A DNA stretch of 64,000 nt from Vulcanimicrobiota bacterium (GTDB lineage Bacteria; Vulcanimicrobiota; Vulcanimicrobiia; Vulcanimicrobiales; Vulcanimicrobiaceae). Of this stretch, positions 23,294 to 61,985 are shown in pieces. Made by a program: the position numbers and the translations under genes. The stretch lies in assembly GCA_003168375.1 (NCBI GenBank), contig PMSI01000001.1, positions 1,550,001-1,614,000 on the forward strand, written 5' to 3'. How positions within the stretch are numbered: the first letter of the stretch is position 1; each line of letters opens with the position of its first letter. A model generated the notes under the pieces. That model did no database searches and was not told where the DNA came from. It saw only the letters and a list, made by a program, of their open reading frames with translations.

Positions 23294-23365
23294 GGGCCCG
23301 TAGCTCAGCGGTAGAGCAGCCGGCTCATAACTGGTAGCGCGCTGGTTCGAATCCAGCCGGGCCCA
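23294..23365 (+). tRNA. tRNA with CAU anticodon (Met or lysidine-Ile)
   Basis: The acceptor GGGCCCG pairs with CGGGCCC at 23358-23364. D arm GCTC/GAGC, anticodon loop CTCATAA (CAU) and T arm GCTGG-TTCGAAT-CCAGC all fold. CCA is not encoded. Elongator Met, initiator Met and Ile2 cannot be told apart firmly by eye; the GU pairs in the anticodon stem argue against an initiator. A regulator gene begins 20 bases downstream. Confidence 0.93.
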
Positions 23366-23384
23366 CAACTCTCCGGCCGACAGT

Positions 23385-25970
23385 GTGATCGTTTCGCGAA
23401 CCTCTCTCTTTCCGCGTGACCGCATCTTCGCGCGCCTCGACGCGGTTCGCGCCGCGCCGGTTGCACTCGTCTCGGCGTCCGCCGCGAGCGGGAAGAGCAC
23501 CGTTCTGCGCGAGTACGTCGCGCATGCGCCGTTCGAGCACGTGCGCTTCGACGGCGCCCCCGAGCACGCGCTCCCCGAGGAGTTCCTGCGCGGGTTCGCC
23601 GCCGCGTTCGCGACCGTGCTCCCCCCGATGGCGTCCTCGATCGGCGCCGCCGCGGCGCGGTTCGCGAAGGGCGACGACGACGACGAAGTGCTGGCCTGGG
23701 CGTCCGAGCACCTCAGCGCGCTCCACGCAACGGTCGTCCTCGACAACCTGCACCACGCGCTGGCGCACGAGCGCATCGCGCGCTTCGTGCACCGTCTCGT
23801 CGACGCGACGCAGCCGCGGGTACGTTGGATCCTGCTGACGCGCAGCGCCGATCAGCTCCCGGTCGCGCGCTGGATGGCGACCGGCGTGATGGAGCTGCCG
23901 CTCGACGAGGGCGACCTCGCCGTCACGCTCGACGAGTTCCGCGTCGCCGCCGAACGCTGCGGCGTGCCGCTCGACGCCGCGGCGCTCGCGCGGATCCACG
24001 ACCGGATGCAGGGCTGGCCGCTCGGGCTCGCCGTCGCGCTCGGCGCGGGCGGCAGCGCGCTCGATCCCGATCTGAAAGGGCGCGACGCGCTCTACGACGC
24101 GGTCGTCGACGCCGCGCTGGGCCCGCGCACGGCGGCCGCGCAGGACGAGCTCTACGTCGCGGCGCTCGCGGCGCGCTTCGACCGGGGGCTGCTCGTTCGG
24201 CTCGGCCTCGAGGAGCGGGTTTGCGACGAGCTCGAAGCCGCAGCCCTCGTCTACGAGCTCGAGCCCGGCGTTTTCGCGTTCCACGAACCGTACCGCGACC
24301 GGCTCGTCGGGCGCATCGATGGGCTCGACGAGCCGCGGCGGCGCCGGCTGGTGCGGGTTGCCGCGAGCGCGCTGCTCGGCGCGGGACGGTGGAGCGAAGC
24401 GATCGCGCTGCTGCTGCACGAGGGCGACGTCATCACGATCGCGGACGTGGTCGAGGAGCGCGGCTTCGCGGCGTTCGACCGCGGCGAAGCGACGCTGCTG
24501 CGCGATGCGCTCGCCGCGTTGCCCGACGACGTCGTGTCGAAGCGCCCGCGTGCGCTTGCGATGAAGGCCGCGCTGGCAGCGCTCGACGACAACTTCGATC
24601 TTTCGGAAGCGTGGTTCCGCATGGCGATCGCGGCCGCCGAAGGCGATGCGCGTCGCGAGATCGTGGTTCGCTACGGGCTCGATCTCGTTCGGCGCGGTCG
24701 CGAAGACGCCGTCGCGCTGCTCGAAGCCGAGACGTCGCGTTCGAGCGAGGAATCAGAGTGGGATGCGGTGCTTTGGGGTCTGCTCGGCACCGCGTTCGTC
24801 GGCGTGCACCGGATGGACGACGCGCGCCGGGCGGCGCGCGTCGCGCTGGGCCGCATCGGCGACGTCACCGACGCGACGCGGCGCTCGCGGGTGCTGCACC
24901 AGGCCGCCTACGTCGCGCTGAACGACCACGATCACGTCTCGGCGAAAGATCTGGCGGAGCGCGCCGTCGCCGAGGCCGAGGCCGCGTTCGCGTACGACAT
25001 CGCGGCGCGTGCGCTCAGCGTGCTGTACGTGCTCGCGATCGACGTCGACGACGACGCGGCGGCGAGCAGAAAGCACCTCCAGCGGCTCGACGAGACCGCG
25101 CGCAAAGCCGGCAACGGGCAGCTCCGCATGTACTCGATCCTCAACGCGTACGAGCTCGAGATGCTCGCCGGCAACACCGCCGCGATCGAGCGGCTCGACG
25201 CGGAGCTGCGCGAGCTGCAGGTCTTTCTGACGCCGCTGGCCAGCGAGACGATCCTGCCCGCGCAGGCGCTCCGCGCGAGCTGGGACGCCCGCTTCGAGCA
25301 CGCCTACCAACTGCTGGCGCCGAGCGCCGAGAAGCAGTTCGACGACGACCGCCGCGCGCAGCGCTGGGCCGAGGCCGCCGTCTACGCGGCGGCGGCCGGG
25401 ATGCGCGGCGAGAGCGTCGCGGCGATGAAAGCCAGCCGCGAGGCGCTGCGCAAGGTCGACCCCGGCGATCGCTGGGCGTTGCGGACCAGCGCCTACCTCG
25501 CGATCGGCGAGATCCTGCTCGCGCACGACGGCCGCGCCCGCAGCGCGGTCGCCGACCTGCGGCGATCGGCCCGGCGCGCCGGCCCCCGCTTCGCGGCGAT
25601 GGTCGACGCGATTCGCGGGCTGCACGCGCGATGGCTGACCGGTTGGCATGCCGATCCGCCGCTCGGCGACGCGATCGAGCGACTCGAAGCCGTCGACCTC
25701 GGCGGGTTCGCCCGGTTCTTGGGCGCCCTGCCGCTGCCGACGACCGACCGCGCCCGGGTCGGTCTGCTCTCCGAGATCGAGAAAGACGTCCTGCGCCTGG
25801 TCGCGGCCGGCGCGACCAGCAAGGAGATCGGGGCCGAGCTCGACCGCAGCCCGCAGACCGTCGACGTCCACCTGCGGACGATCTGCCGGAAGCTCAACTG
25901 CAGCGGCCGGCGGCAGGCGGTGGCGTTCGCAATTCGCGAGGGGCTGATCAAGGAGCGCCGCTCTCCGTAA
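23385..25970 (+). CDS. STAND/TPR-type LuxR regulator, cassette 1
   Basis: 861 residues resembling MalT-type regulators. N-terminal P-loop SASAASGKST (30-39, first Gly of Walker A absent), Walker B VVLDNLH (about 117), a long helical TPR region and a C-terminal LuxR helix-turn-helix (LRLVAAGATSKEIGAELDRSPQTVDVHLRTICRKL, about 800-840; written here as landmarks). It should sense a ligand and activate transcription. A paralogue at 59220-60917 lacks the P-loop half. The GTG start is 20 bases from the tRNA end. HD-GYP and sedolisin genes follow, as in the second cassette. Confidence 0.88.
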   Translation: MIVSRTSLFPRDRIFARLDAVRAAPVALVSASAASGKSTVLREYVAHAPFEHVRFDGAPEHALPEEFLRGFAAAFATVLPPMASSIGAAAARFAKGDDDDEVLAWASEHLSALHATVVLDNLHHALAHERIARFVHRLVDATQPRVRWILLTRSADQLPVARWMATGVMELPLDEGDLAVTLDEFRVAAERCGVPLDAAALARIHDRMQGWPLGLAVALGAGGSALDPDLKGRDALYDAVVDAALGPRTAAAQDELYVAALAARFDRGLLVRLGLEERVCDELEAAALVYELEPGVFAFHEPYRDRLVGRIDGLDEPRRRRLVRVAASALLGAGRWSEAIALLLHEGDVITIADVVEERGFAAFDRGEATLLRDALAALPDDVVSKRPRALAMKAALAALDDNFDLSEAWFRMAIAAAEGDARREIVVRYGLDLVRRGREDAVALLEAETSRSSEESEWDAVLWGLLGTAFVGVHRMDDARRAARVALGRIGDVTDATRRSRVLHQAAYVALNDHDHVSAKDLAERAVAEAEAAFAYDIAARALSVLYVLAIDVDDDAAASRKHLQRLDETARKAGNGQLRMYSILNAYELEMLAGNTAAIERLDAELRELQVFLTPLASETILPAQALRASWDARFEHAYQLLAPSAEKQFDDDRRAQRWAEAAVYAAAAGMRGESVAAMKASREALRKVDPGDRWALRTSAYLAIGEILLAHDGRARSAVADLRRSARRAGPRFAAMVDAIRGLHARWLTGWHADPPLGDAIERLEAVDLGGFARFLGALPLPTTDRARVGLLSEIEKDVLRLVAAGATSKEIGAELDRSPQTVDVHLRTICRKLNCSGRRQAVAFAIREGLIKERRSP

Positions 25971-26037
25971 AGACTCGGCACGTGACGAGGCGGAAGTGGG
26001 GCGATTCGCGAGAAGAAGGGTACTCCTCTTTTACTCT

Positions 26038-26081
26038 CTACCAAGAGTTGGGTAGTGATGAGGGCCCGCACGCGGGGTAGT
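26038..26081 (+). promoter_or_regulatory. Candidate LuxR-type operator upstream of HD-GYP gene 1
   Basis: Inverted repeat CTACC-N8-GGTAG at 26038-26055 followed by TG, with an extra GGGTAGT half-site at 26075-26081. The same CTACC-N8-GGTAGTG arrangement occurs upstream of the paralogous HD-GYP gene at 59254-59271, 78 bases from its start against 88 here. Conservation of both arms with different spacer bases argues for a protein-binding site. Confidence 0.6.
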
Positions 26082-26096
26082 TTGAGCGTGGAGACA

Positions 26097-26122
26097 GTCC
26101 GTCTGCCCTTCAGCCGACGGAC
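26097..26122 (+). promoter_or_regulatory. Leader hairpin before HD-GYP gene 1
   Basis: Perfect 7-bp inverted repeat GTCCGTC/GACGGAC around a 12-base loop. No T tract follows, so it is not a typical terminator. It could protect or control the mRNA; a GGAGG follows at 26129-26133 before the TTG start. Confidence 0.4.
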
Positions 26123-26143
26123 CAGCATGGAGGCACTTCCCCC

Positions 26144-27112
26144 TTGTATCAGACCCGATCGGTCCGCCGCGGAGACCCGCGACTCTCGGCCGCGCTGAAG
26201 GAGCGCGAGCGAGAGATCGCGTCCGAGGCGTTGGCCCGCGTCAGCGCCCAGACCCGCACCGTCGCCGCCGAGCTCCTCGCGGTGCGGTTCGTCGAGCGTT
26301 TCGCCGCATCGGTCGAAGTCGCCGACTGGACGATCCTGCTGCGCTGGGTCGACGGCGCGTGCCGGCGCTACGCCGGCGTGCTGGCCGTCGCCCCGCTGCT
26401 GATCGCCGTCGCCGAAACGGTCCGGATCACGGTTGCCTCGGCCGCGGGCCTGCCGTGCGACATCCGCGAGATCGATCTCGTCCATGCCGAGATCGAACGC
26501 CTCGCCTCGATCCCCCGGCTGGTTCGCGAACCGGCGCTGCACGAAGCGATCGACGAGATCGACGTCGCGCTCGACGACCTGATCGCCCGGCTCGACGACA
26601 GCGACCCGCTGACCGCCGAGCACTCACGCGCGGTGTCGTCCTGGTGCGCGCGCCTCGGCCGCCGCCTCGCACTGGCAAAGCACGACATCGTCGGGGTTTC
26701 GCGCTGCGGGCTGATTCACGACGTCGGCAAGATCACGACGCCGCTCGAGATCCTCAACGCGCCGCGCCGCCTCAGCGACGAAGAGATGGTGGTGATGCGG
26801 CGCCATGCGGAAGACGGCGCGAAGCTGATCGCTGCGATGCCGCTCGTGAACCACATGACGCCGGCGGTGCGCAACCACCACGAACGTTTCGACGGACGCG
26901 GATATCCCGACGGCTTGGCGGGCGGCTCGATTCCGAGCTTCGCGCGCATCGTCTCCGTCGCGGACGCGTTCAACGCGATGATCGGCCGCCGCCCCTACCG
27001 GCCGCCGTTCGCGCCGTCGGTCGCGCTGGAGCGGCTCGTCGAGAACCGCGGCACCCAATTCGATCCAATCGTCGTCGACGCGATGGTCGACGTCGTCACC
27101 AATCGCGGATAA
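26144..27112 (+). CDS. HD-GYP domain protein (c-di-GMP phosphodiesterase-like), cassette 1
   Basis: 322 residues. A helical N-terminal region without recognised sensor precedes the HD-GYP domain: H160, H192-D193, K196, H221, H245-H246-E247 and the GYP signature in DGRGYPDGL (253-255). The full metal-ligand set suggests an active hydrolase of cyclic di-GMP or a related dinucleotide. No membrane segment. The TTG start is favoured because the paralogue also begins MYQT, there with GTG, and GGAGG precedes it. The sedolisin gene follows after 46 bases. Confidence 0.9.
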   Translation: MYQTRSVRRGDPRLSAALKEREREIASEALARVSAQTRTVAAELLAVRFVERFAASVEVADWTILLRWVDGACRRYAGVLAVAPLLIAVAETVRITVASAAGLPCDIREIDLVHAEIERLASIPRLVREPALHEAIDEIDVALDDLIARLDDSDPLTAEHSRAVSSWCARLGRRLALAKHDIVGVSRCGLIHDVGKITTPLEILNAPRRLSDEEMVVMRRHAEDGAKLIAAMPLVNHMTPAVRNHHERFDGRGYPDGLAGGSIPSFARIVSVADAFNAMIGRRPYRPPFAPSVALERLVENRGTQFDPIVVDAMVDVVTNRG

Positions 27113-27158
27113 CCTCGGATACCCCGGCAGAACGCCACCTCTCGAGCAAAGGAATGCA

Positions 27159-28478
27159 ATGAGAAAGCCGATCATCCCCCGATCGTTTACCGCCCTGGTC
27201 GTCGTCGGACTGCTGGCGGGTGTCGCTGCATGCAGCGGCGGGATCGGTTCCTATGTTCCGTCGGGTGGTGAACGGTCTACCGAATCCGGTCGCGCGCTGC
27301 CCGGAGGCTCGCCGACGCCGACGCCGATGCCGGGCGAAACGCCGGCGCCGCCGCCACATCATCACATTCTCTCGGGACGCGCGCTCCCCGGGCAGCCGAC
27401 GCCGACGCCGACGCCGACGCAGGCGCCGCTCGTCACCTCCGTGCTGTGCACCGCAGGCGTCGGCGCGAACTGCCACGTGCTCCAGAACACCGCGCTCGCG
27501 CCGCTGCTCGATGCGCTGGGAATCCTCATCCCCGGCTACCATCCGGCCGACCTGCGCAGTGCATACGGTCTCTCGCCGCTGCCGCTTCTCAGCGGTCTCC
27601 TCGGCGGCGGTTCGACGGCGCCGAACGGGCCGACGATCGCGATCGTCAACGCATTCGACGATCCCAACGCCGAGCACGATCTCGGCGTTTACCGGAATCG
27701 CATGGGCCTGCCGCCGTGCACGAGCGCGAACGGCTGCTTCAAGAAGCTCAACGCAGCCCTACAGAAGGGCCCGTATCCGTTGTCGAACCGCGGATGGACC
27801 GCCGAGACGTCGCTCGATCTCGCGATGGCGTCGGCCGCGTGTCCGACCTGCCGTATCGCGCTGATCGAAGCCGCCGACGACAACCTCGAATCGTTGGCCG
27901 CGATCGTCGACAAGCTGGCGCAGCCAGGTTCCGCGATCGCGCCGGCTGCGATCAGCAACAGCTGGGGTGCACCGGAGACGAGCGACGTCACCGAGCTGGA
28001 ACACTCCTTCGCACATCCCGGCGTGCCGATCGTCGCGAGCGCCGGTGACGACGGGCGCGTCGAGTTCCCGGCGTCGTCGTCGAACGTGGTCTCGGTCGCC
28101 GGCACGACGCTCTCGCGGGGGTTGCTCTCGGGCTGGAGCGAGACCCCGTGGACCCCGTCGGGGACCGGCTGCAGCGGATACTTCGTCGCCGGCTCCTGGC
28201 AGCACACGAGCTGCGGCAAGCGCAGCGTCGCGGACGTCTCGGTCGTCGCCGACCTGAACCCCGGGATCGCGGTCTACGACTCGGCCGCCGGCGGCTGGGT
28301 CGTGTACGGCGGGACGAGCGCGGGCGCGCCGTTCATCGCCGGCCTCTTCGCAGCGGCACACGACTATCCGTCGAACGGCGTCGGTGCGGCACCGGTGTAC
28401 GCAAAGGCGTCGCATCTGAAGGCGCTTGCGGGCTCGACCATCTCGCTCGGTTCACCGAGCGGATTGGGGGCGTTCTAA
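27159..28478 (+). CDS. S53 (sedolisin-like) protease lipoprotein, cassette 1
   Basis: 439 residues. Signal peptide with lipobox ending at C25 (GVAAC), two SGRALPG motifs around Pro-Thr repeats (about 44-90), then the catalytic domain opening at LRSAYGLSP. The sedolisin set is complete: E216 and D220 (AETSLD), oxyanion D297 (SAGDDG), Ser387 in GGTSAGAP. The long propeptide of classical sedolisins is missing. Ends GSPSGLGAF, as its paralogue does. Probably anchored to the outer surface; acid-active if like the family. Confidence 0.88.
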   Translation: MRKPIIPRSFTALVVVGLLAGVAACSGGIGSYVPSGGERSTESGRALPGGSPTPTPMPGETPAPPPHHHILSGRALPGQPTPTPTPTQAPLVTSVLCTAGVGANCHVLQNTALAPLLDALGILIPGYHPADLRSAYGLSPLPLLSGLLGGGSTAPNGPTIAIVNAFDDPNAEHDLGVYRNRMGLPPCTSANGCFKKLNAALQKGPYPLSNRGWTAETSLDLAMASAACPTCRIALIEAADDNLESLAAIVDKLAQPGSAIAPAAISNSWGAPETSDVTELEHSFAHPGVPIVASAGDDGRVEFPASSSNVVSVAGTTLSRGLLSGWSETPWTPSGTGCSGYFVAGSWQHTSCGKRSVADVSVVADLNPGIAVYDSAAGGWVVYGGTSAGAPFIAGLFAAAHDYPSNGVGAAPVYAKASHLKALAGSTISLGSPSGLGAF

Positions 28479-28522: not shown

Positions 28523-28597
28523 GGCGCCATAGTCTATCGGTTAGGACGCCGCCCTTTCAAGGCGGAGAGACGGGTTCGACCCCCGTTGGCGCTACCA
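28523..28597 (+). tRNA. tRNA-Glu (UUC), island attachment gene
   Basis: Acceptor GGCGCCA pairs with TGGCGCT (one GU); D arm, anticodon stem CCGCC/GGCGG with loop CTTTCAA (UUC), T arm ACGGG/CCCGT. CCA is encoded (28595-28597). The last 16 bases, CCCGTTGGCGCTACCA, recur at 31686 and 41687, making this tRNA the likely integration site for the following island. Confidence 0.94.
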
Positions 28598-56624: not shown

Positions 56625-57020
56625 ATGATCGAGCCAGGAGAAGCCAACGTGAGCCAACGCGCATTTTCGATTACGGGTCTCGACCTGAGCGGCTACATGG
56701 TCAAGGACGGCGCTCGGACGAGCGCCTTCTATCGCGACGTCCTTGGACTCGAACCAACGACGGTGTATCCCGACAACGCGGGCGCGGAATACGAGTTCGC
56801 GGACGGCACGACGTTCGGGCTCTGGAGCGCGGGCGACATGATTCCGTTCCAGCAGAGCAACGGTGTCCTGTTCGCGGTGGGCGATCTCGATGCCGCGGTG
56901 GCAGCCGTCAAGGCGCGCGACGTGCCCGTCCTCATGGAGCATGAAACACCCGTGTGCTTCATGGCGATGATCAGCGACACCGAGGGCAATAGCGTCGTCC
57001 TGCACAAGCGCAAGACGTAG
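56625..57020 (+). CDS. VOC-family protein (source of the 61.8-kb duplicate)
   Basis: 131 residues. SGYMVKDGARTSAFYRDVLGLEP, GVLFAVGDLDAAVAAV and CFMAMISDTEGNSVVLHKR make one VOC unit. ATG 56625 is 7 bases after tRNA-Val; GTG 56649 is also possible. The last 170 bases are repeated as a broken copy at 61809-61985, on the far side of cassette 2. Confidence 0.85.
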   Translation: MIEPGEANVSQRAFSITGLDLSGYMVKDGARTSAFYRDVLGLEPTTVYPDNAGAEYEFADGTTFGLWSAGDMIPFQQSNGVLFAVGDLDAAVAAVKARDVPVLMEHETPVCFMAMISDTEGNSVVLHKRKT

Positions 57021-57034
57021 GTGCTAGCGGACTC

Positions 57035-58183
57035 TTAGAAGGCGCCGAGCCCGTTCGGGCTGCCGGGTGTCGCCGGATTTCCCGCCGGGTCGACCGCGTT
57101 GAGTGACGCGAGGTGTGCGTAGATCGATGGCGCGCCGACAGCATTCGTACCGAAGTCGCTCGCTTGGGCGTAGAGCCCGGCCACGAACGGCGAGCCGACG
57201 CTGGTTCCACCCAGCACGATCCAACCTCCGTCACTGCTATCGTAGACGGCGATTCCGGGATTGAGCGCCGCGACGAACGAGACGTCGGGGACCGATCGTG
57301 TGGTGCATGAGGTACCGGTCTGCCAAGCGGGTGCAACCGTCACCGTGCTGCAGCCGGCACCGGAGCTGGCCCATGACGACTCACTCCAACCGCGCGAACT
57401 GCCGTCGTGCGTGAGCGTCGTTCCGCCGACTGCGGTGACGTATCCGGATGACGCCGGGTATTGGACGGTGCCGTCATCACCCGTGCTCGCGACGATCGCG
57501 ATACCCGGATGGTTGTAGTGGCCGTTGAGGTTGGCACTACCCTGCGCTTCCGGGATGCCGTAACTGTTGCTGATTGCCGCGGGGTTCAGCGCAGCGGCGG
57601 CATCGACCGCGAGGGCGAGGACGCTCGGGTTCGCGTTTTGTGCTTCGATGAGCGTCAACCGGCAGGTGGGGCAGGCCGCCGACGCCATTGCGAGGTCGAG
57701 CGACATCTCCTCGGACCAGCTGCGGTTGTACGGCGTCCAGACGCTGGGATTCTTGATCTTCGTGAAACAGCCGTTGGCCGAGGTGCACGGCGCCAGCCCG
57801 AAGCGCTGGCGATAGATCGCGAGGTCGGATTCGGCGTTCGGATCGTCGTAGGCGGCGACGATCGCGATGAGCGGCCCGGTCGCCGGGGCACTCGTCGCCG
57901 GAGACAGCCCGTATGCGGATCGCAGATCGGCCGGCTTCAGGCCTGCGATCGTCGCCGCGTTCGGATCGGCGATGGGAAGGATGTCGACGTTCACCTGCAC
58001 ATAGCAGCCGAGCTCGCCGAGGACAACCGTGCACGCCCCGGGCAGGGCGCGAGAGTAGAGCGGTGTTCGCGCCGTGCCTTGCACCGCGCCGCCGCTTTGC
58101 GGTGGTACGGCGGTCGCAACGCCGTTCGCACCGCACCCCGCCAAGAGCGCGCCGGCGACGGCGATGAAGATAGTACGATTCAC
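57035..58183 (-). CDS. S53 (sedolisin-like) protease lipoprotein, cassette 2
   Basis: 382 residues from GTG 58183. Lipobox ends at C17 (LLAGC); a single SRALPG motif precedes the catalytic domain, which opens LRSAYGLSP. Sedolisin residues: E159 and D163 (SEEMSLD), D236 (STGDDG), S328 (GGTSVGSP). No long propeptide. GTG overlaps the HD-GYP stop as GTGA. Paralogue of 27159-28478 but lacks its Pro-Thr linker. Confidence 0.88.
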   Translation of the reverse strand: MNRTIFIAVAGALLAGCGANGVATAVPPQSGGAVQGTARTPLYSRALPGACTVVLGELGCYVQVNVDILPIADPNAATIAGLKPADLRSAYGLSPATSAPATGPLIAIVAAYDDPNAESDLAIYRQRFGLAPCTSANGCFTKIKNPSVWTPYNRSWSEEMSLDLAMASAACPTCRLTLIEAQNANPSVLALAVDAAAALNPAAISNSYGIPEAQGSANLNGHYNHPGIAIVASTGDDGTVQYPASSGYVTAVGGTTLTHDGSSRGWSESSWASSGAGCSTVTVAPAWQTGTSCTTRSVPDVSFVAALNPGIAVYDSSDGGWIVLGGTSVGSPFVAGLYAQASDFGTNAVGAPSIYAHLASLNAVDPAGNPATPGSPNGLGAF

Positions 58184-59175
58184 GGTAGGTCTACTCGATT
58201 CAGTGGAAGTTGAGTGGTGTTTACGACATCGATCATTGCATCGACGACGATCGGGTCGAATTGTGTGCCGCGGCCTGCGACGAGGCGCTCGAGCGCGACG
58301 GCCGGTCCGAGCGGCGGGCGATACGGACGCCGCCCGATCATCGCGTTGAACGCGTCGGCGACGCAGACGATCCGGGCGGACACCGGTATGCCCGTCCCGG
58401 CCAACCCGTCGGGATAGCCGGCGCCGTCGATGCGCTCGTGATGGTTGCGAACGGCGGGCAACAGGTGCGCGACCAGCGGGAGCCCCGCGACCGTATCGCC
58501 GCCGTCGGCGGCGTGCCGCTTCATGATGACGAACTCGTCGGCGGTGAGCTTGCGCGGGGCGTTCAGAATCTCCGGCGGCGTCCAGATCTTCCCGATGTCG
58601 TGGATCAGACCGCTGCGGGAGATCTCGATCGTGTCCTGCTTGCTCAGCGACATCCGCTCGGCGAGCCGCGCACACCACGCCGCGACCGCTCGCGAGTGCT
58701 CCGCGGTCAGCTCGTCGCTCTGATCGAGGCGTGTTATCAAATCGTCGAGCGCGACGTCGACTTCGTCGATCGCCTCATGGTGTGCGGCATGGACCAGGCG
58801 GGGCAGCGCCGTGAGGCGCTCGACGTCCCGCCGTAGACCCTCGAGGTCGGCGTCCGAAAGTCCGGCGTTCGGCACGTTCTCGACGACGTCGCACGTGGCG
58901 CCGACCGCGACCGAGATGAGCTCCGTCATCGGGAGAATGCCGGCATACCGCCGGCACGACGCGTCGACGAACGAAAGCAGCGGTGCCCATTCCCCGGACG
59001 AGACGGACGCCGAAAAACGCTCGACGAGGCGGCTCGCGACGATCTCCGCGGCGACGGTTCGATGACGCGGTGCCATCGCGTTGAGGGCGCTCGCAGCGAT
59101 GTCGGGAAGGCGCGCATTCAGCGCGGAACTGAGCCGAGCGTCCGAAACGGGGGCGCTGCGAATCGTCTGGTACAC
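58180..59175 (-). CDS. HD-GYP domain protein, cassette 2
   Basis: 331 residues from GTG 59175, opening MYQT like its paralogue. Ligands are complete: EHSRAVAAW, LIHDIGKIWTP, MKRHAADGG, RNHHERIDGAGYPDGL. Homology spans the whole length; the N-terminal third is more diverged. Likely cyclic di-GMP hydrolase. The stop overlaps the sedolisin start, direct evidence that cell-signal turnover and the protease are co-expressed. Confidence 0.9.
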   Translation of the reverse strand: MYQTIRSAPVSDARLSSALNARLPDIAASALNAMAPRHRTVAAEIVASRLVERFSASVSSGEWAPLLSFVDASCRRYAGILPMTELISVAVGATCDVVENVPNAGLSDADLEGLRRDVERLTALPRLVHAAHHEAIDEVDVALDDLITRLDQSDELTAEHSRAVAAWCARLAERMSLSKQDTIEISRSGLIHDIGKIWTPPEILNAPRKLTADEFVIMKRHAADGGDTVAGLPLVAHLLPAVRNHHERIDGAGYPDGLAGTGIPVSARIVCVADAFNAMIGRRPYRPPLGPAVALERLVAGRGTQFDPIVVDAMIDVVNTTQLPLNRVDLP

Positions 59176-59219: not shown

Positions 59220-60917
59220 CTACCGAGCGTATGAGATCGCCTCGATTCGTGCACTACCCGCAATGGGGTAGGGACCTGCGAGAGGGCCTCCTGCAGAGCG
59301 TCCGCCGGGCTGGCGCCGTTCGTCGATCAGTCCGGAACGAATCGCGAAACCGACGGCGCGCCGGCGCCCGCTGCAGCCGAGCTTTCGGCAAATCGTTCGC
59401 ACGTGGACGTCGATCGTCTGCGCGCTGCGGTCGAACTCCGCTGCGATCTCCTTGCTCGTCTCGCCGGTGGCGATGCGACGGATGATCGACTTTTCCAACT
59501 CGCTGAGCAGTGAGACGCGCCCTTGCGGCGACGTCGGCAGCGAAAGTGCCTCGATGAAACGCGCTATCCCGCCGAGCTCGACGCGTTCGAGCCGTTCGAG
59601 CGCGTTGGGGAGGGAGAAGGGTTCTTCCGATCTGCCGCTCCAGCGCGCGTAGAGCGCGCGGATCGCCTCGACGAGCGCGAAGAACCTCGGCCCGGCGCGG
59701 CGCGCCGCCACGCGCAAGCCGGCGATCGCGGTGCGGGCGCGCCCGTCATGCGCGAGGAGGATCTCGGCGATCGTCAGGAATGCTTGCGCACGCAGCGACG
59801 AGCGGTCGGACGCGTGCGCCTTCCGCAACGCTGCTCGGCATTTCCCAATCGCGCGGGTGCTCTCGGTGCGCATTCCCGCTGCCGCGGCGTACGCCGCGAC
59901 TTCCGCCCAGCGAACGGCTCGGCGGTCCTCGTCGAACTGTTGCTCGGCGCTTGGGGACAGCAGCGAATGAGCGTGCTCGAATCGACCCTCCCACGCGGCG
60001 CGGAGCGCCTGCGCCGGCAGGAGCGATTCGCTCGCCATCGGGGTCAGAAAGATGCGGAGCTGCGCCAGTTCCGAGTCGAGGATCTCGATGCCGTCGAGGT
60101 TGCCGGCATCGACGTCGAGCTCGTACAGGTTCATGATCGCGTACAGGGCGAGCGCGGGATTCGATGCTTTTCGCGCGCAGTCGGTCATGCGTACGAGATA
60201 CGCGCGAGCGGCGGCCGGGTCGTCCTGGACGCCGACCGAAAGGTTGTGCAGGACGCTCAGCGCGCGCGCCGCGACATCGTACAGCTGGGCGCGCTCGGCG
60301 TGCTCGAGCGCCATCTGCGCCAGGTCGAAGGCTGAGGTCATGTCGCCGTCGTTCAGCGCGACGAAGGACGCTTGGTGAAAGATGCGGGCGCGCACGCCGT
60401 CGTCGTGGACCGCGTGCAGAGCGCGTAGCGCTTTCCTTGCCGCCCGTCGCGCGTCGTCGAGGCGGTGCGCGCCGACGTAGGCCGTTGCGAGCAGCGCCGC
60501 GAGCGGAGCCGAGCTTGCTTCATCGAGTCCAGGGCGCTCGATCTCGGTGCAGAGAAACGCGACGGCGTCCGACCGCGAGCGGCGCACGAGATCGAGCCCG
60601 AACCGGACGACGATCTCCCTGCGGGTATCGCCCATCGCGTCGCCGAGCGCCATTTCGAACCAAACATCGGCGAGGTCGAAGCGGCCGTCGAGCGACGCGA
60701 CCATCGCCTTGAGCGTGAGCGCTGCGGGGTTCTTCGCGAGCACATCGTTGGGAACCGAAGCGAGCGTGGCGCGCACGACACCGACGTGGCCGGAGTCAAA
60801 AGCGCGAAAGCCGTGCAGATCGAGCCACGACGCGACGAGGCCCGGGTCGGCAGCCGCTGGCAACGCCGTTATCGCCGACGCTGGTTCGTCGGGTGCCTGT
60901 GTCCCGGGGCCTGCCAT
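59220..60917 (-). CDS. TPR/LuxR regulator lacking P-loop, cassette 2
   Basis: 565 residues from ATG 60917. Aligns with the second half of the regulator at 23385 (FDLADVWFEMAL, FLTPMASESLLPAQALRA, DEDRRAVRWAEVAAYAAAAG) to the LuxR helix-turn-helix (SKEIAAEFDRSAQTIDVHVR). The P-loop domain and its first 340 residues are missing. The C-terminus runs 28 residues past the paralogue's stop, through a candidate operator. A start at 60995 would read through an operator array and is rejected. Confidence 0.85.
   Translation of the reverse strand: MAGPGTQAPDEPASAITALPAAADPGLVASWLDLHGFRAFDSGHVGVVRATLASVPNDVLAKNPAALTLKAMVASLDGRFDLADVWFEMALGDAMGDTRREIVVRFGLDLVRRSRSDAVAFLCTEIERPGLDEASSAPLAALLATAYVGAHRLDDARRAARKALRALHAVHDDGVRARIFHQASFVALNDGDMTSAFDLAQMALEHAERAQLYDVAARALSVLHNLSVGVQDDPAAARAYLVRMTDCARKASNPALALYAIMNLYELDVDAGNLDGIEILDSELAQLRIFLTPMASESLLPAQALRAAWEGRFEHAHSLLSPSAEQQFDEDRRAVRWAEVAAYAAAAGMRTESTRAIGKCRAALRKAHASDRSSLRAQAFLTIAEILLAHDGRARTAIAGLRVAARRAGPRFFALVEAIRALYARWSGRSEEPFSLPNALERLERVELGGIARFIEALSLPTSPQGRVSLLSELEKSIIRRIATGETSKEIAAEFDRSAQTIDVHVRTICRKLGCSGRRRAVGFAIRSGLIDERRQPGGRSAGGPLAGPYPIAGSARIEAISYAR
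59254..59271 (-). promoter_or_regulatory. Candidate operator upstream of HD-GYP gene 2
   Basis: CTACC-N8-GGTAG, read on the minus strand followed by TG, same arms and spacing as 26038-26055. It lies inside the 3' end of the regulator gene, 78 bases before the HD-GYP start. Confidence 0.6.
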
Positions 60918-60923
60918 GGAGCG

Positions 60924-60988
60924 ATCGTAGCGGCGTCCGGTAACGGCACCGTTACCGCCGACGGTCACCGGGTAACGCGGAGGTAACG
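60924..60988 (-). promoter_or_regulatory. Regulator 2 promoter with GGTAAC site array
   Basis: Perfect palindrome GGTAACGG-CA-CCGTTACC (60939-60956) plus direct GGTAACG sites at 60971-60977 and 60982-60988. On the minus strand TACGAT (60924-60929) would be the -10 box, giving a start at or next to the ATG 60917. The palindrome covers the poor -35 region, as expected of an activator site. Confidence 0.65.
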
Positions 60989-61088
60989 GGAGCACGAAAG
61001 CGCCGAGCGCTCAGCGTCTTGCGAGCGAAAAAGGGCCGCGGCGCAATGCGTCGCGGCTCTCTTTCGGCTTTGCCCGAGACCTTAGCCC

Positions 61089-61808: not shown

Positions 61809-61985
61809 TCGTTCCAACCGAGCAATGGAGTCCTGTTTGCGGTGGACGATCTCGATGCCGCCGTGGCAGCCGTCAAGGCGGGGAACATTCCCGTGCTCAT
61901 GGAGCATGAAACCCCGGTGTGCTTCATGGCGATGATCAGCGACACCGAGGCCAATAGCGTCGTCCTCCACAAGCGCAAGGCATAG
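61809..61985 (+). pseudogene. Broken 3' copy of the VOC gene at 56625
   Basis: In frame, SNGVLFAVDDLDAAVAAV ... CFMAMISDTEANSVVLHKR matches the end of the 56625 gene residue for residue except a few positions; DNA identity is about 90% by eye. The first two thirds of the gene are missing. Same orientation as the intact gene, so the 57.0-61.8 kb segment lies between direct repeats. Confidence 0.85.

Follow-up and report, generated by a model that had tools for sequence, protein, structure and literature searches.

A STAND-TPR regulator paired with an HD-GYP protein and accompanied by an S53 lipoprotein in Candidatus Eremiobacterota: a tentative peptide-sensing module

The window analyzed here, a stretch of 64,000 nucleotides from a Vulcanimicrobiota bacterium (contig PMSI01000001.1, positions 1,550,001 to 1,614,000), contains two copies of a three-gene cassette that encodes a regulator with tetratricopeptide repeats (TPR) and a LuxR-type helix-turn-helix (HTH) domain, an HD-GYP protein, and a lipoprotein protease of family S53 (Table 1). 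The original prediction had described two paralogous cassettes in the same gene order, and both are present as described. In pairwise alignments, the copies share 58% amino acid identity over 526 residues of the regulator (copy-1 residues 337–861), 60% over 322 residues of the HD-GYP protein and 48% over 440 residues of the protease, and their likeness is therefore not due to chance; at the DNA level, the larger aligned pieces are 66–74% similar. The claim that all three proteins are homologous over most of their length holds for the HD-GYP protein and the protease but not for the regulator, which in copy 2 is missing the whole N-terminal NTPase and retains the TPR and HTH regions. The predicted frame overlap in copy 2 was also seen, the GTG start of the protease and the TGA stop of the HD-GYP gene being read from the same GTGA.

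Table 1. Positions of the two cassettes, their linker peptides and the flanking tRNA genes in the window
Feature	Coordinates	Strand	Description
Copy 1 regulator	23385..25970	+	861 aa; NTPase, TPR and LuxR HTH
Copy 1 regulator, domains			Walker A ASAASGKS, residues 31-38; TPR, ~300-785; LuxR HTH, 795-849
Copy 1 HD-GYP protein	26144..27112	+	322 aa; TTG start
Copy 1 HD-GYP protein, domains			Helical N-domain, ~1-140; HD-GYP domain, 150-309
Copy 1 S53 lipoprotein	27159..28478	+	439 aa; lipobox Cys25; prodomain absent
Copy 1 protease, linker peptide 1 (SGRALPG)	27285..27305	+	Residues 43-49
Copy 1 protease, linker peptide 2 (SGRALPG)	27372..27392	+	Residues 72-78
Copy 2 regulator	59220..60995	-	TPR and LuxR HTH, without NTPase; candidate starts 60995, 60968 or 60917
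Copy 2 HD-GYP protein	58180..59175	-	Motifs HDIGK and HHERIDGAGYP intact
Copy 2 S53 lipoprotein	57035..58183	-	382 aa; GTG start; catalytic residues kept
Copy 2 protease, linker peptide (YSRALPG)	58037..58057	-	Residues 43-49
tRNA-Met flanking copy 1	23294..23366	+	
tRNA-Glu flanking copy 1	28523..28597	+	

The two cassettes are long-standing paralogues retained in more than one species, because the copy 2 regulator has an orthologue in another species (G001; 77% identical and likewise without the NTPase) and copy 1, which occupies the interval between tRNA-Met and tRNA-Glu, has a counterpart at the same tRNA-Met/tRNA-Glu site in genomes G008 and G010. A recent local duplication is ruled out by the same two observations. 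In genome G004, a deletion scar (locus L006, positions 1501–2192) joins the first 19 codons of the regulator, 100% identical to copy 1, to protease codons 232–439 (93%), and the cassette seems to have been lost there by one internal deletion. Past copy 2 there is a second, truncated copy of a glyoxalase-like gene's 3′ end, with the intact gene, behind a tRNA-Val, on the opposite side; copy 2 and a Gly/Asn-rich open reading frame are enclosed by these two directly repeated gene ends (window 61825–61985 and 56650–57020, both on the plus strand).

The regulator resembles MalT. The Walker A motif of copy 1 and a match to AAA_22 identify an N-terminal STAND NTPase, a feature absent from copy 2, and the C-terminal LuxR HTH is matched by GerE in both copies. 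The regulator profile matches the MalT structure 8bob (E 8e-36) as well as TPR structures, and MalT is the best match in both the PDB and NCBIfam, although the NCBIfam score of 100 bits compares with a cut-off of 537. STAND proteins of the MalT type are known to regulate transcription as one-component systems. The NTPase-TPR-LuxR architecture is common to MalT and the LAL (large ATP-binding LuxR) regulators; the proteins described here differ in scoring far under the MalT cut-off, in the loss of the NTPase from copy 2 and in relatives whose regulators lack LuxR and have an HD-GYP protein or domain in its stead. In genus g18 (L171, L258, L260, L264, L265, L266), the regulator has shrunk to its TPR half, 384–445 residues without NTPase or LuxR, which still precedes the HD-GYP gene and, mostly, the protease.

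The HD-GYP protein is a predicted cyclic-dinucleotide phosphodiesterase. Its HD and GYP motifs are intact in both copies (HDVGK and HHERFDGRGYP in copy 1), and its nearest solved relatives are V-cGAP3 (5z7c), PmGH (4mcw), PA4781 (4r8z) and DvhD (9rbz), with which it shares the HDxGK and HHExxDGxGYP motifs and the fold. It differs from these enzymes in having a helical N-domain, unnamed in Pfam, in place of REC or PAS, in its pairing or fusion with a STAND-TPR protein, and at one position of the active site. There, in a pairwise alignment, the PmGH motif DPETQNH corresponds to DPLTAEH, with Leu replacing a Glu that we take to be Glu185 of the trinuclear site. Because of this substitution, and because the closest solved relative by sequence, V-cGAP3, is a 3′3′-cGAMP phosphodiesterase, the substrate need not be cyclic di-GMP (c-di-GMP). 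On general grounds, namely 21 GGDEF matches in the same genome, c-di-GMP is somewhat more probable than another cyclic dinucleotide.

The assignment of the protease as a sedolisin was borne out by profile (E 1e-30) and fold, with Kumamolisin-As as the best fold match (E 5e-16), although a single-sequence Pfam scan returned Peptidase_S8 only. The copy 1 protease has the catalytic residues E216, D220, D297 and S387; E216, D220 and S387 are found in 29 of 29 aligned proteases and D297 in at least 90% of them. The protease thus shares the catalytic Glu, Asp, Asp and Ser and the fold of the sedolisin/kumamolisin family, and differs in being a lipoprotein, in its linker bearing conserved peptide units and in the absence of Pro-kuma_activ, the prodomain usual in S53: no Pfam match to it was found in the module proteases scanned, whose profile starts at the mature kumamolisin domain.

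Relatives were drawn from the window’s family in Candidatus Eremiobacterota (99 genomes), in which an HD-GYP protein of the window subfamily occurs at 1e-62 or better in 60 genomes. Genes were called in about 120 stretches by means of profiles and a codon model made for this analysis; the stretches were selected by homology to the three proteins, and the counts consequently describe modules, not frequencies among random genes. All three parts occur together in 26 regulator-centred modules from 19 genomes and 10 genera of the one family, in two orders, regulator-HD-GYP-protease and protease-regulator-HD-GYP. Thirty further loci have the regulator and HD-GYP protein only, and 14 the regulator and protease only. 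Recurrence in several genera with coupled frames, a check named beforehand, was found. A search of the literature for HD-GYP with sedolisin, HD-GYP with STAND, tetratricopeptide and LuxR, and sedolisin with c-di-GMP found no such system. One locus labelled Rhodospirillales (L176, JANYGA010000159.1) has the same gene sizes and order as the Eremiobacterota loci L275 and L276 and is probably a misbinned contig.

It became clear from these neighbourhoods that the tight pair of the module is the regulator and the HD-GYP protein. On the regulator tree, the fewest state changes are 2 for HD-GYP, 3 for LuxR and 11 for the protease, which can stand on either side of the pair. On the neighbourhood counts and the tree, the supposed coupling of the HD-GYP protein with the protease is rejected, and frame coupling is likewise found mainly between regulator and HD-GYP: the two frames overlap, mostly by 4 bases, in 16 of 30 LuxR-less pairs, as against 1 of 20 LuxR-bearing pairs. 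The idea of regulated surface proteolysis tied to c-di-GMP stands insofar as the triple recurs; since the protease is unstable and the frames are coupled between regulator and HD-GYP, it misses the core, a STAND sensor with HD-GYP output, and it also missed the peptides of the protease linker described below.

The relatives also show an exchange of outputs. The LuxR domain is absent from 38 listed relatives of the regulator, some of them truncated at contig ends, and in 34 of these 38 an HD-GYP domain is encoded next to the regulator or fused to it in a single chain; three of the remaining four lie at contig ends and one is a distant hit. LuxR loss happened once within the clade to which the window copies belong (L095, L101, L103, L105) and one or more further times elsewhere on the tree. 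A gene-calling artefact is ruled out as the source of this loss, as full-length proteins, mostly of 750–815 residues, stop in many genomes at the point where an HTH would be expected to start; it is also countered by fusions that read through the junction. Two such fusions are paralogues in bog_1502, a metagenome-assembled genome of Candidatus Eremiobacterota (PLAE01000271) and the best named relative: L270 (986 residues) and L271 (1066 residues) are single STAND-TPR-N-domain-HD-GYP chains with HDxGK and HHERLDGKGYP intact. A third fusion, L131 in genome G013, is degenerate and has lost the Walker A and HD-GYP motifs; in alignment, the protease of L131 retains the catalytic E, D and S. The loss of LuxR beside HD-GYP, the overlapping frames and the single-chain fusions make it very likely that the STAND protein and the HD-GYP protein form one functional receptor/effector unit, of which the window copies are a state with both outputs, LuxR and HD-GYP.

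Two other arrangements recur. Many family genomes have a STAND regulator with LuxR and, after it, HD-GYP, with no protease (L173, L277–L282, L284, L286, L290, L291); such pairs form the deepest branches of the midpoint-rooted regulator tree and may represent an earlier form of the module. A second recurrent module lacks HD-GYP: a LuxR-bearing STAND regulator adjoins two S53 genes (L096, L106, L107, L110, L113, L118, L130, L104), of which the short one has the peptide repeats and the long one has Pro-kuma_activ (scanned in L096 and L106).

A further feature lies in the exported linker of the regulator-linked proteases, between lipobox and catalytic domain. This region, predicted by a model to be disordered in copy 1 (residues 17–75), contains a peptide of 7–8 residues with the core A/G-hydrophobic-P-x, often repeated; units in relatives include AGLPGESS (seven times in L112), ENATGLPG, NGANALPG, DSASAMPG, GVLALPGN, SSRAIPI and PWPLTAV. 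Exact tandem 7–9-mers occur in the linkers of 16 of 41 regulator-linked proteases, compared with 1 of 62 for the other S53 proteases and 0 of 8200 shuffled linkers. Codon differences within arrays are almost entirely synonymous, with synonymous-to-nonsynonymous counts of 95:0 (L112), 51:0 (L096), 23:0 (L118) and 50:6 (L108) against an expected synonymous fraction of ~0.3, the units having been chosen by their peptide for most arrays; comparing neighbouring units, array edges included, gave 37:4, 30:4, 26:7 and 23:5. Recent DNA slippage is ruled out as the source of the repeats, as the codons differ synonymously, and since gene conversion or recent slippage would have erased the synonymous differences too, the pattern points to selection on the peptide sequence. 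AGLPGESS is present in both L096 and L107, in differing copy number; the regulators of these two loci share 80% identity. The linker peptides are, with high probability, functional sequence units; we rate at below even the possibility that the STAND-TPR protein has them as its ligand. Other proteins with the linker peptide were sought among the called genes of the stretches taken from the genomes. Two tandem orphan proteases with no regulator nearby (L144, G032:C233) share one linker unit, SLSAFPV; few other orphans have repeats of this kind.

Taken together, the cassette may be one version of a family-wide peptide-sensing STAND module with an HTH output, an HD-GYP output, or both. The architecture of this module is well supported; we hold its peptide-sensing function tentatively, at a little under an even chance. 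At its core would be a cytoplasmic, MalT-like STAND sensor with NTPase and TPR regions, coupled to a cyclic-dinucleotide phosphodiesterase of the HD-GYP type. The S53 lipoprotein would be exported and anchored, and its own activity, or that of a sibling S53 protease, would cut the A/G-hydrophobic-Pro-x sites of the disordered linker, freeing peptides of 7–8 residues; in keeping with such sites, the inhibitor AcIPF of the kumamolisin-As entry 1sio likewise has a hydrophobic-Pro-x pattern. These could be re-imported through oligopeptide permeases, and the genome has 19 matches to the peptide-binding family SBP_bac_5. Once imported, the peptides may bind the TPR array of the sensor, whose output would be transcription through LuxR, switching of the co-translated HD-GYP protein with the lowering of a cyclic dinucleotide, or both. 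In relatives without LuxR, HD-GYP would be the sole output, twice in one genome within the same chain and with intact motifs.

Several points weigh against this mechanism. No protease is nearby in 13 LuxR-less regulator/HD-GYP pairs, for which a signal from elsewhere would be needed, and the module proteases of bog_1502 (L262, L271) have no clear copy of the peptide. Since the NTPase is missing from the regulators of copy 2 and of genus g18, switching by a STAND domain cannot apply throughout. The counts are uncorrected for shared descent, and the relatives are mostly draft genomes. The linker pattern could instead serve the protease itself.

That last point is developed in an alternative that accepts the STAND-TPR/HD-GYP pair as real and takes the linker peptides for tethered pseudosubstrates, which would stand in for the prodomain and hold the S53 enzyme inactive until it is required, the protease being a regulator-controlled output for nutrient scavenging. 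The module proteases lack the prodomain that larger sibling S53 genes have, and the hydrophobic-Pro-x core resembles the S53 inhibitor AcIPF, with which kumamolisin-As was solved according to the title of entry 1sio. In the genome of the window, moreover, an orphan S53 gene (L097, G000:C4:549000-564000) is flanked by two SBP_bac_5 peptide-binding protein genes, as would suit scavenging. However, orphan proteases of the same kind are also without the prodomain and almost never have the repeats, and the residues outside the core are identical within arrays but different between lineages. We consider this alternative unlikely. Still less likely is an ordinary MalT-like activator that responds to an unknown small molecule and induces both an HD-GYP enzyme and a protease at the cell surface, with the repeats as flexible linker only. 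It would fit the intact LuxR domain of both window copies and the clade of LuxR-bearing regulators that adjoin proteases, without HD-GYP, as an activator and its target; but the DNA-binding domain was repeatedly lost only where HD-GYP is adjacent, fusions exist, and a plain flexible linker would not keep an exact octamer against synonymous turnover. A chance association of the three genes, or one due to local shuffling, with separate tasks for each, is very improbable: the protease association does change often and the G004 cassette was seemingly lost by a single internal deletion, yet fusions and both gene orders are seen repeatedly across 10 genera, and frames overlap.

The peptide-sensing reading invites comparison with the RRNPPA systems of the Bacillota (Firmicutes), in which the gene for a TPR receptor adjoins that for an exported precursor carrying a short peptide in multiple copies, and the pheromones are matured by extracellular proteolysis (PMC11343458, PMC9765709). 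The likeness lies in a TPR protein gene next to one for an exported protein with short peptide units, here a candidate precursor. Unlike in the RRNPPA (Rap/Rgg/NprR/PlcR/PrgX/AimR) family, the receptor here is a MalT-like STAND protein, the peptide units lie in a protease linker rather than a small propeptide, and the output can be an HD-GYP enzyme; RRNPPA structures were not among the regulator profile hits. If the peptide is the ligand, the module would work similarly to RRNPPA systems, but it is not a member, having another receptor family and another precursor. At its widest, and doubtfully, the module may represent peptide cell-cell signalling in which the exported protein is both a multi-copy pheromone precursor and its own maturing protease, and in which a STAND-TPR receptor had its output switched from DNA binding to cyclic-dinucleotide hydrolysis by domain loss and fusion.

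Eremiobacterota is a little-studied phylum with very few cultured members. A MalT-like sensor coupled to, or fused with, an HD-GYP enzyme would pass its signal straight to a second messenger of nucleotide type, and the linker peptides are a testable candidate ligand for this receptor class. If true, multi-copy precursors would serve peptide signalling in a group other than the Bacillota.

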